Assembly (NCBI RefSeq): GCF_004801295.1
Contig: NZ_SSOC01000002.1
Location: 434,001-498,000, forward strand
Direction of reading: 5' to 3'
DNA length: 64,000 nt
Source: Pseudothauera nasutitermitis
GTDB lineage: Bacteria; Pseudomonadota; Gammaproteobacteria; Burkholderiales; Rhodocyclaceae
Below, one piece after another: positions 9,400-60,222 of the stretch (position 1 is the first letter of the stretch; each line of letters begins with the position of its first letter). A program made the translations under genes and the position numbers. The notes beneath the pieces were generated by a model. It saw only the letters and a list, made by a program, of their open reading frames with translations. It made no database searches and was not told the DNA's origin.

Positions 9400-11562
9400 A
9401 TGAGCCCGCCCCTGACCGAACACGGGCAGGCGCAATCCACGGGCTTCGCCCCGCGCTTTCGCGGCCTGCTGATCTATGTTGCCACGGCGATCGTGTGGAC
9501 CATGCTGTCCACGCCGCTCGCCCCGCTGGTGTCCCCGAGCGTGGGCGAAGGTGTCTTCCAGCTGTGGGGCTTCGTGCTGCTCGCCCCGCTGGCGCTCTAT
9601 CTGGGTGGCTGCCTGGGGCCGCGCCGCATCGGCATTCCCGGCATCGACCTGCAGAGCCTGCGCCAGCAGGAAGCGCGCTACCTCACCCTGCTGGAAAGCC
9701 TGCCGGTGGGCATATTCCACTACGACCGCAAGCTGCGCATCACCGAGTTCAACGGCCGTTTCGCGGAAATCCTCCACGTGCCGATGAACACCCTGCGCCG
9801 GCTGGACATCGGCACGCTGCGCGACCAGCGCATCCTGGAACCGCTGCGCGCGGCGCTGGACGGCAAGCCGGCACGCTACGACGGCGAGTACCTGGGCACC
9901 TACACGATGCGCAAGATCCGCGTCACGCTGCGCACCGCGCCGGTGTTCGACGAGGAAGGCCAGGTCAGCGGCGGCGTGGGCATCGTCGAGGACGTCTCGG
10001 CGCAGTACGAGGCCGAGAGCATGCTGCGCGAAAGCGAGACGCGCTACGCGCTGGCCATGCGCGGCACCCACGAAGGGTTGTGGGACTGGAACCCGGAGAG
10101 CCACTCGCTGTTTCTCTCCAACCGCCTGCTGCTGGTGCTCGGCATCGAGGGCGATCACCTGCGCACCACCAGCGACGAGTGGCTGAAACTGATCCACCCG
10201 GACGACCGCAAGCTGTTCCAGAACATGCTGATCGACCACCTCAAGGGCCGCACGCCGCATTTCGAATGCGAGTACCGCGTGCGCCATCAGGGCGGCGACT
10301 ACCGCTGGGTGCTCGCGCGCGGGCTGGCGCTGCGCAACGAGCGCGGGCTGGCCTACCGCATGGTCGGCTCGATCGGCGACATCACCGGACGCAAGCGCGC
10401 CGAGGTACGCCTGAAGAACGAACTGGCGTTCACCCGCACGCTGATCGACAGCCTGCCCATCGCCCTGCTGGTGGTGCGCCCGGACGGCTCGATCTCCCTG
10501 TGGAACCGCTTCTTCGCGCAGATCCTGGGCTACAGCGACGACGACATCAACGGCATGCTGGCACTGCGCCTGGTCGCGCCGGAAGACAAGGCGCTGCTGG
10601 AACAGCGCCTGGAAGCCACGCTGCACGACGGCGAGGCCAGCGTGCGCGCCGCGCTGATCGCCCGCGACGGACGGCGCATTCCCTTCGATTTCTTCGCGCG
10701 CATCATCGAACTGGATGGCGAGCGTCGCGTGCTGTGCATCGCATCCGACATCTCCGAGCGGCTGGCCACCGAGGCACGCATGCGCGAGTTGAACCGCACG
10801 CTGGAATCGCGCGTGGCCGAGCGCACCGCCCAGCTGGCCTCCGCGCTGAAGGAACTGGAATCCTTCAGCTACTCGGTATCGCACGATCTGCGCGCGCCGC
10901 TGCGCGCCATCGACGGCTACAGCGTGATCCTCACCTCGGAATACGGCAGCGCGCTCGACGACGAGGCGCGCATGCTGCTCCAGCGCATGCGTGCGGCCGT
11001 GCAGCGCATGGGCATGCTGATCGACGATCTGCTCAATCTGGCGCGCGTCTCGCGCCAGCCACTGGAACGCCAGACGGTCCGACTGAACCCGCTGATCGAG
11101 GAAATCGTCGCCGAACTGCGCCAGCGCGAACCGGAGCGCCGGGTGCGCATCGAGGTGGCGCCGGATCTGCAGGTGCGTGCGGACCCCAATCTGATGCGCA
11201 TCGCGCTGGAGAACCTGCTGGGCAACGCCTGGAAATTCACCGCCAGACACGAGGACGCGCTGATCCGTGTCACCCAGACGCACGATCCCGAGGGCCAGGA
11301 GGTGTTCTGCGTGGAAGACAACGGCGCCGGCTTCGACATGCGCTACGTGGACAAACTGTTCGGCGCCTTCCAGCGCCTGCACCACGAACGCGACTTCCAG
11401 GGCACCGGCATCGGCCTGGCCACCGTGGCGCGCATCGTGCAGCGCCACGGCGGGGAAATCTGGGCGCATGGCGAACCCGACCAGGGTGCGCGTTTCTGCT
11501 TCACCCTGGGCTCCCCCTTGTCGGACGGCGGCACGACGGCGGCGGACCACCCCGCCGCATAG
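9400..11562 (+). CDS. Membrane-associated multi-PAS sensor histidine kinase (orphan)
   Basis: 720 residues. Two N-terminal membrane segments (about 22-42 and 52-71), then three PAS domains (about 90-205, 218-335 and 345-455), a HisKA domain with the phosphoacceptor His495 in FSYSVSHDLRAPLRAIDGYS, and a HATPase domain with N-box NLLGNAWKF, G1 DNGAGFDM and G2 FQGTGIGLAT. The SHDLRAPLRAIDG form is typical of phytochrome-like kinases, though no GAF or PHY domain is present. No response regulator is adjacent, so its partner and signal are unknown. An in-frame ATG at 9313 is possible, but MSPPL at 9400 gives a normal short cytoplasmic lead. Confidence 0.88.
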   Translation: MSPPLTEHGQAQSTGFAPRFRGLLIYVATAIVWTMLSTPLAPLVSPSVGEGVFQLWGFVLLAPLALYLGGCLGPRRIGIPGIDLQSLRQQEARYLTLLESLPVGIFHYDRKLRITEFNGRFAEILHVPMNTLRRLDIGTLRDQRILEPLRAALDGKPARYDGEYLGTYTMRKIRVTLRTAPVFDEEGQVSGGVGIVEDVSAQYEAESMLRESETRYALAMRGTHEGLWDWNPESHSLFLSNRLLLVLGIEGDHLRTTSDEWLKLIHPDDRKLFQNMLIDHLKGRTPHFECEYRVRHQGGDYRWVLARGLALRNERGLAYRMVGSIGDITGRKRAEVRLKNELAFTRTLIDSLPIALLVVRPDGSISLWNRFFAQILGYSDDDINGMLALRLVAPEDKALLEQRLEATLHDGEASVRAALIARDGRRIPFDFFARIIELDGERRVLCIASDISERLATEARMRELNRTLESRVAERTAQLASALKELESFSYSVSHDLRAPLRAIDGYSVILTSEYGSALDDEARMLLQRMRAAVQRMGMLIDDLLNLARVSRQPLERQTVRLNPLIEEIVAELRQREPERRVRIEVAPDLQVRADPNLMRIALENLLGNAWKFTARHEDALIRVTQTHDPEGQEVFCVEDNGAGFDMRYVDKLFGAFQRLHHERDFQGTGIGLATVARIVQRHGGEIWAHGEPDQGARFCFTLGSPLSDGGTTAADHPAA

Positions 11563-59048: not shown

Positions 59049-59447
59049 ATGCCGCGCAAGACCCAAGCTCCCTGCCCCTGCGAATCCGGCCAGCCCTACG
59101 CCGACTGCTGCGGCCCCGCCCACGACGGCCGGCGCCCGCCCACAAGTGCCGAGGCCCTGATGCGTTCGCGCTACAGCGCCTTCGCACTCGGCCGCGCGGA
59201 CTGGCTTCTGGCGAGTTGGCATGCCAGCACCCGCCCGGCCACCCTGGATCTCGCCGAAGATCCCGCGCCCAAATGGATCGGCCTGCGCGTACTGCGCCAC
59301 GAGCAGCGCGATGAAAACCACGCCATCGTCGAGTTCGTCGCGCGCTACCGGCTCGGCGGACGGGCCGCCCGCCTGCACGAACTCAGCCGCTTCGTGCGCG
59401 AGGACGGGCACTGGTATTACGTGGATGGCGATCCGCGCGAGGACTGA
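59049..59447 (+). CDS. YchJ-family SEC-C zinc-binding protein
   Basis: 132 residues. N-terminal SEC-C zinc motif PCPCESGQPYADCCGP and the YchJ signature EALMRSRYSAFALGRADWLL; C-terminal NTF2-like fold ending HWYYVDGDP. Function unknown. Single gene, separated from acnA by 102 bp. Confidence 0.9.
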   Translation: MPRKTQAPCPCESGQPYADCCGPAHDGRRPPTSAEALMRSRYSAFALGRADWLLASWHASTRPATLDLAEDPAPKWIGLRVLRHEQRDENHAIVEFVARYRLGGRAARLHELSRFVREDGHWYYVDGDPRED

Positions 59448-59514
59448 GTTCCCCGGTTATCGGGGCAGTCGCGTCCACCGCATCCGTCCTCTTTCGAGCG
59501 CCCCGGCCGTTCCC

Positions 59515-59702
59515 GGAGTTGATGGGCATGGCTGTCGGCTCATACGCTCCCGCCCTTCGGGTTCCCGCGCCGTGGGGCGCGCTGCCGTCCGGGCCGGAAC
59601 TCGGGCGCTGCGCGCCCTCAGACAGCCGGCCCGGACTTCCCCGGCAGCGCGCCCCACGACGCGGCGGGAGCGAAATCGCCGACAGCCATGCCCATCAACT
59701 CC
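59515..59702. repeat. 188-bp long imperfect palindrome (possible miniature mobile element)
   Basis: Nested inverted repeats that would fold into one long hairpin. Outer arms 25/25 perfect (59515-59539 and 59678-59702, starting GGAGTTGATGGG), then 10/10 (59545-59554 and 59663-59672), 17/17 (59571-59587 and 59642-59658), 10/10 (59588-59597 and 59626-59635), and a terminal GGGCGC-TGC-GCGCCC. In total 68 base pairs. The element is flanked by TCCC on both sides (59511-59514 and 59703-59706), like a short target duplication. It lies in the 391-bp gap between ychJ and a DUF6394 gene and codes for nothing convincing. A non-autonomous transposable element or a structured RNA are the main options. Confidence 0.8.
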
Positions 59703-59838
59703 TCCCCACATGCCCGCTGGAACTTCGGCAGCCCCCCCCGGCACCTGCATGCACCGATATGGACTCGCCCAGGCCACCGGCATCCGCATGCAATGCCTAT
59801 AATCGACCCTCATCTCCCCGGCCCTGCGGACCCTCGCC

Positions 59839-60222
59839 GTGAATCTCGAAAAAGTCATCTTCGGTTTCTTCATCGTCCTTGCCGCCACGCTCAACTTCGG
59901 CTTCTTCACCGGCGACATCGACAACCCGGCGCATCACGACGTCTATGAGCTGTTCGCCGCCATCGTGGTCAGCCTGATCGCCACCGTGCTGAAGTTCGGC
60001 GACCGCACGCAGATCGGCGCGGTGCATCTGTCCACCAGCCTGGTGGCCGACCTGCAGCTGATCGCCGCCGCCATGGTGTGGGGCTATGCCGCCCACGTCT
60101 CGCCGGCCGGGCTGACACCGGAAATGGTGGCCCGCGTGGTCTCGCTGTCCGGCGGCGCGCTGCTGGCCAACGGCGTCTCGGTGGTCATCCTGATTGCCGA
60201 AACCATCATGCAGCGCCGCTGA
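59839..60222 (+). CDS. DUF6394-family membrane protein
   Basis: 127 residues from a GTG start; three or four hydrophobic segments (KVIFGFFIVLAATLNFGFF, LFAAIVVSLIATVLKFGD, LLANGVSVVILIAETIM). It sits 19 bp before a K+-channel gene, the context in which this family is usually found (as I recall), suggesting a shared role in ion transport. Function unknown. Confidence 0.75.
   Translation: MNLEKVIFGFFIVLAATLNFGFFTGDIDNPAHHDVYELFAAIVVSLIATVLKFGDRTQIGAVHLSTSLVADLQLIAAAMVWGYAAHVSPAGLTPEMVARVVSLSGGALLANGVSVVILIAETIMQRR

Follow-up and report, generated by a model that had tools for sequence, protein, structure and literature searches.

Several kinds of dispersed element share features with the palindrome analysed here. 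MIC, tIS and TIME have two inverted ends around passenger genes, lack a transposase of their own and are presumed to be moved in trans. Integron attC sites conserve structure rather than sequence, with one strand preferred, and are associated with accessory and defence cargo. REP/RAYT elements are dispersed intergenic hairpins that form inverted pairs. ERIC is a long imperfect intergenic palindrome in several copies, for which we know of no paired, cargo-bracketing layout. The BRE is a betaproteobacterial chromosomal repeat of ~90 bp that is usually intergenic, often occurs in several copies at one locus (VNTR), and has some features of mobile elements (PMC3110155).

The repeat described here is likewise chromosomal and intergenic, with some mobile-element features. 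From BRE as described, it is set apart by its length of 188 bp and by its arrangement, with one same-strand neighbour pair in 24 among the matches listed rather than several ~90-bp copies per locus. As in MIC, tIS and TIME, its inward pairs enclose genes, and the cargo has no transposase, except at one locus (L191). Its ends differ in being folded modules of 190-250 bp whose stems covary and one of whose strands is preferred, no target duplication was seen, and we know of no parent transposon or enzyme for them. The conserved structure, preferred strand and accessory or defence cargo recall attC, whereas the repeat units have two inverted ends against one site per cassette; the canonical RYYYAAC/GTTRRRY box is absent near the ends, on either strand, in all eight copies of the host genome. 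With REP/RAYT elements the repeat shares dispersed intergenic hairpins and inverted pairs, although it is far longer, its pairs bracket genes, and the Y1 enzyme is absent from nine of 16 carriers. Its likeness to ERIC, compared by description only, lies in being a long, imperfect, multi-copy intergenic palindrome. Among open-licence PubMed Central articles (preprints excluded, short sequence words included in the queries), we recognised no publication describing it. The repeat is dispersed, inserted and structurally constrained, and is mostly paired inward around accessory genes. We favour, with moderate confidence, the reading that the palindrome belongs to a family of structured, dispersed repeats, each acting as an end module for mobile units that carry cargo and are non-autonomous.

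The palindrome lies in a 64,000-nucleotide stretch of the Pseudothauera nasutitermitis genome (4.72 Mb in 20 contigs; C2:434001-498000), hereafter the window, and heads the list of 22 inverted-repeat pairs given by a scan of the window. Feature coordinates are collected in Table 1. The original prediction, made by reading the sequence, described a 188-bp palindrome with five stems of 25, 10, 17, 10 and 6 bp around a GGGCGC-TGC-GCGCCC tip, and all of these were recovered. Its figure of 68 paired bases in 188 is correct as a count of base pairs; the paired bases number 136. The statement that random GC-rich DNA does not fold in this way is borne out by a DNA fold of positions 59505-59712 at -100.1 kcal/mol, compared with -50.0 +/- 3.4 kcal/mol for 200 dinucleotide shuffles (z -14.6), none of which folded as well. 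The sole tRNA gene found in the window is a tRNA-Leu (cag) at 10840-10927.

Table 1. Features of the palindrome and its surroundings, in window coordinates.
Feature	Position	Strand	Evidence
Whole imperfect palindrome, 188 bp	59515-59702	- (putative folding strand)	Fold z -14.6; copies; strand skew of mismatches
Outer stem, left arm, 25 bp (partner 59678-59702)	59515-59539	.	Recomputed stem; helix 1 covariation
Outer stem, right arm	59678-59702	.	Pairs with 59515-59539; covariation
10-bp stem	59545-59554/59663-59672		Sequence reading
Left arm of middle stem, 23 nt with a single mismatch (partner 59642-59664)	59565-59587	.	Helix 3
17-bp perfect stem inside middle stem	59571-59587/59642-59658
10-bp stem	59588-59597/59626-59635
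6-bp tip stem, GGGCGC-TGC-GCGCCC	59603-59608/59612-59617
Conserved left box, CTCATACGCTCCCGCCCTTCGGGTTCCCG	59539-59567	+	Own-genome pattern matches; alignments A1, A5
Conserved right box, GCGAAATCGCCG, facing the left box to give an asymmetric internal loop	59670-59681	+	Alignments A1, A5
Tip core, CGGGGAAGTCCGG...TGTCTGAG-hairpin-CGAGTT, conserved asymmetric internal loop	59598-59643	-	Pattern match; 40-copy alignment A6
Left neighbour ORF, 132 aa, flank of empty-site comparison	59049-59447	+	ORF reading; relatives
Right neighbour ORF, 127 aa, flank of empty-site comparison	59839-60222	+	ORF reading; relatives

The host genome contains eight full copies of the element and a left half copy. 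Its left box, with at most one mismatch, occurs at nine places in this genome, and the reversed control at none. Within the matched part, the remaining copies share 80-89% identity with the window element, and all copies are intergenic by ORF reading. Most are solos that border no cargo. The single close pair, whose inverted ends consist of the palindrome alone (189 bp, 84% identity), encloses a DUF1016_N fragment, which is eroded cargo. Perfect 25-bp terminal inverted repeats and the lack of coding capacity (the ORFs over the element are mechanical only) agree with a MITE. TCCC does abut both edges, as first noted, and its suggested role as a target duplication is rejected because only one of the eight copies has an abutting direct repeat of 4 bp; one has 3 bp, one has 1 bp and five have none, and the matching flanks that would mark a mobile element were not found among the copies. 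The half copy (L160:5035-5276, contig C4) is found ~70 bp upstream of the gene for tRNA-Sec and ends abruptly inside the middle stem. By eye, a flank motif near GGAAC(C)GGCTG stands beside about seven of the nine copies.

Comparison with relatives indicates that the element was inserted. The spacer between the two neighbour genes, the left of which we take by eye to be YchJ-like, is 391 bp in the window, compared with 49 and 45 bp in two sister species (G001 and G002) that lack the element at this site, so the 188-bp palindrome and ~150 bp of unalignable sequence are extra here. The expectation of many copies at unrelated sites is thus borne out. The corresponding site in G005 holds a different gene block, and in G003, G004 and G014 the left neighbour gene was not found within the locus. 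A second empty-site comparison in the host genome used a gene that proved not to be conserved in the sister species.

A covariance model (R1), built from the eight own copies and three relatives, had matches in 81 of the 297 genomes from the Rhodocyclaceae, broadly defined, and in 27 of 68 genera; among five genomes of the same genus, it matched only G003. The genomes compared are mostly drafts, in which a copy that stands alone at a contig edge may have been separated from its partner. A strict core pattern matched three of the 399 genomes of an order-level sample, all among its 13 genomes of the same family, and only the host genome among 398 of a phylum-level sample; the reversed pattern matched none. 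The strict pattern misses many carriers recognised by R1 and therefore delimits the core of one form rather than the outer limit of the family. Among named genomes, the left-box pattern gave nine stretches, eight from Rhodocyclaceae/Rhodocyclales MAGs and Candidatus Nitricoxidireducens and one from an unclassified MAG. The window element had no match in plasmids or phages, and two end or core patterns had none in viral contigs; a plasmid, phage or viral origin is rejected on these collections. One end from G129 gave two partial matches, on replicons of Comamonas and Variovorax that are catalogued as plasmids, in neighbourhoods without a transposase, so parts of a wider hairpin module exist outside the family. 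The outer part of the ends of L115 (1100-1330), L113 and L117 has a TTTCTTGC...GCAAGAAAG hairpin, and similar stretches occur on those Comamonas and Variovorax replicons.

For structural comparison, 94 repeat matches were reduced to 61 copies by dropping weak matches and repeats of one place. Alignment A5 holds 31 of these 61; cores were kept for 57 (four lack the motif), of which 40 form alignment A6. Compensatory changes between copies, the expected mark of a conserved structure, are present both in the own copies and in A5. Among the eight own copies, both partners have changed in 28 of the 73 predicted pairs. In the outer stem (helix 1), 20 of 25 pairs show a change on both sides; its sequence varies between copies while pairing is kept. 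In A5, 85.5% of cells are paired, compared with 68.9% after shuffling, and double-change cells number 332, compared with 116.3 in shuffles and 44-67 in slid structures. The covariation score is 0.376 against 0.104, where relatedness inflates scores relative to shuffles, the slid controls retain relatedness, and the structure derives from one of the sequences. RNAalifold returned only seven pairs for the 40-copy core alignment because of gap placement.

The mismatches that remain in the stems indicate which strand folds. Strand-blind mutation of a palindrome should yield C.A and G.U mismatches in equal numbers. On the core strand, however, A5 contains 20 G.U cells and 114 C.A/A.C cells, the own copies contain 2 and 19, and pairs that are at least 75% Watson-Crick contain 10 and 48. 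When the 61 copies were folded without G.U pairs, isolated mismatches comprised 85 C.A/A.C and 18 G.U, and counted per copy, 38 lean one way, five the other way and 18 are tied. P-values for this skew are too small, owing to shared ancestry and to one variable column (31/164 of A5). Because C.A on one strand reads as G.U on its complement, it is apparently the fold of the complementary strand that is under selection; this is the minus strand in the window and is probably the folding strand. Part of the skew could also arise from a C-to-T bias on that strand. At column pair 8/187, which is mostly A-U, the mismatches are again C.A rather than G.U (5 to 0), and these speak weakly for selection. 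An excess of C.A over G.U offers a simple test of which strand of a palindrome folds.

These observations also bear on a structured RNA, the second possibility raised by the original prediction. In such an explanation the minus strand would be transcribed, an RNA with a TGTYYGAG-hairpin-CGAGTT internal loop would act in cis or trans, and dispersal would be secondary. The covariation of the stems, the conserved internal loop and the mismatch skew, which amounts to an excess of G.U when the minus strand is read (114 versus 20 in A5; 85 versus 18 across copies), all accord with it. Against it, there is no promoter-like site in 59300-59900, Rfam models gave no match up to E 10 in the same interval (and on eight further loci only a tRNA), and the orientation of own-genome copies to their neighbour genes is mixed by eye, because of which a plain 3'-UTR RNA was rejected. 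Nor does RNA alone explain inward pairs around cargo. We consider this account unlikely, at roughly one chance in five; the mismatch pattern points to the folding strand and does not distinguish RNA from single-stranded DNA.

The arrangement of neighbouring copies argues for the end-module reading. In 13 genomes, 18 pairs of neighbouring copies are separated by less than 6 kb. Of these, 16 (nine of ten leaving out G032) have their cores pointing inward and two outward, both of which lie between two units; none are on the same strand. This count used 90 of 105 low-threshold matches (E up to 0.0012), the 15 weaker ones being left out, which include reverse-strand self-matches of own copies and two further would-be inward pairs (G075 C1:262615+ and G034 C14:74470+). 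Among the matches listed for other genomes, read by eye, four pairs are inward (G159, G065 twice and G122), one is outward (G019) and one is same-strand (G281), giving 20 inward of 24 for both sets together, among the matches listed. It follows from the orientation of the copies that, at either end of an inward pair, the putative folding strand points away from the cargo. Outer stems fall into two subtypes in the genera of G034/G116/G159 and of G075/G129, and five pairs examined by eye have one of each.

The two ends of a unit also resemble one another. The mean likeness of end cores is 0.92 within a unit and 0.87 between units of one genome (10/11 units), and the within-unit value ranks first of 96 stratified permutations (eight units). 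In two G034 units the left and right end cores are identical, and three G034 units have inverted ends of 209-216 bp with 93-98% identity and a common terminus near TTGCCGGGWCTCGCC. In G032, seven units of ~750 bp (L103-L109) have long inverted ends and a short spacer with no cargo; most of these spacers contain a CGTCATTCCCGCGAAAGCGGGAATCCAG repeat, which we take to resemble the neisserial dRS3. By eye, there is no target duplication at unit ends with long inverted repeats, and cargo units flanked by hslU and by an FAD-protein gene gave one-sided empty sites only, with no clean two-sided site. The flanks of L116, L045, L048, L055 and L080, all from one genus, carry a second repeat, AAAGTCGGCGCTGGCGGGACGG or its complement, with a T-run end that looks terminator-like by eye.

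Cargo was examined at 19 loci, 12 inside pairs and seven on the tip side of single ends; these were gathered by following matches, come from few genera, and leave out L083-L088, L193 and many single copies. Defence-type proteins are present at ten of the 19 loci. They comprise a CAP12/Pycsar TIR protein with a kinase and DUF3010 (L078), a TIR protein (L114), Mrr_cat proteins (L119 and the second unit of L113), DUF4238 (L081), GmrSD (L122/L197), AbiLi with AbiLii/RloB (L195), an N6-methyltransferase of the type IIG kind (L196) and PD-Lambda-4 A (L121). At the tenth of these loci, L120 (6725-9429), a CARF-type protein (HFX_2341_N) and an ORC-CDC6-like ATPase beside one end are possibly an undescribed defence pair. 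Among the other nine loci, L079 carries an iron-permease set, L115 a PNPOx protein, and L080, the first unit of L113, L116, L117, L190 and L118/L192 carry proteins that belong to other families or to none. L191, at a contig start, contains a protein without an assigned family and the only cargo transposase, a DDE enzyme that presumably belongs to an ordinary insertion sequence. PADLOC at 1e-10 matched seven of 14 cargo loci and one of ten outward neighbours; this sole outward match is a helicase labelled DpdF by PADLOC, which we take by eye to be RecQ. Housekeeping genes predominate among the outward neighbours (dnaB, lgt, accD, recR and an RNB-domain nuclease). Gene names given without a family search, such as YchJ, RecQ, HslU and MetB, are readings by eye. 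The bracketed proteins at L116:1973-2443, L117:1459-3548 and L190:1623-2087 have no Pfam match and are candidates for new accessory or defence genes.

The end-module reading draws together the multiple copies, the absence at the sister-species site, the covariation, the asymmetric loops, the inward pairs, the alike end cores, the long inverted ends and the defence cargo. Folding would involve a single strand of the repeat, the minus strand in the window, whose bulges and loops would be read by a recombinase or transposase encoded elsewhere. This trans-acting enzyme would move or copy the unit into intergenic sites, and solo copies may be cargo-less units or single ends left behind. The window copy, with no cargo alongside, reads as a solo end or a minimal unit. 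The original suggestion of a miniature element thus survives as regards dispersal, while in relatives the element is more than miniature, forming the inward-facing end modules of cargo units. Counted against the reading are the moving enzyme, which was not found (PF01797 was searched for, and a cargo transposase occurs only in L191), the same-strand pair of G281, the outward pair of G019 and the two outward pairs between units, and the nine of 19 cargo loci without defence-type proteins. The missing target duplication, the one-sided empty sites of the cargo units and the preponderance of solo copies in the host genome, whose sole close pair has only an eroded fragment, weigh against it as well.

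Copies also sit between genes and at cargo borders, as would suit a passive boundary element, namely an insulator or a terminator of transcription in both directions, kept on either side of acquired genes. An intrinsic terminator (a G+C-rich stem with a T run) was rejected, as there is no terminator-like site in 59300-59900 and the longest T run in the eight own copies and their 20-bp flanks is 4. Neither the conserved loops nor the strand skew would be needed for a boundary role, and most own-genome copies have no adjoining cargo; we regard such a role as improbable.

Copying between the arms of a palindrome, termed quasipalindrome correction, keeps them complementary, and the repeat could in principle be a decayed and now functionless sequence maintained in this way. 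On the core strand, almost every change in the repeat is a double one that preserves Watson-Crick pairing, as this process would produce. The most conserved parts of the repeat are, however, its asymmetric loops (CTCATACG against CGAAATCG, the bulge at GACTTCCCC, and AACTCG-hairpin-CTCRRACA at the tip), which copying between the arms should have evened out, and copying alone is therefore unlikely to account for them. It also predicts neither a mismatch skew nor inward pairing, and we consider this explanation quite improbable. A REP-like element moved by a RAYT/Y1 transposase is highly improbable: the inverted hairpin pairs are similar in layout to paired REPs and a past enzyme is conceivable, but 188 bp is far longer than REPs, a resident enzyme is rejected for the host genome (no PF01797 match), and PF01797 is missing from nine of 16 carriers, the host included (81 genomes searched), so a resident Y1 transposase is not required.

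Taken as end modules, the repeats may form an integron-like but unrelated system for mobilising cargo, with two inward ends per cassette, the cassette often being an anti-phage gene or operon, and with a folded single strand of fixed polarity (RNA or DNA) that an undiscovered enzyme would recognise in trans; this would spread defence genes among the chromosomes of one family; we offer this as a speculative and rather unlikely extension. The vehicles of many defence genes that move often are not known, and a polarised repeat that brackets single defence operons between housekeeping genes provides a handle on them. The core pattern of the repeat can be used to list cassettes, to flag new defence genes by their position, and to help the search for the enzyme.
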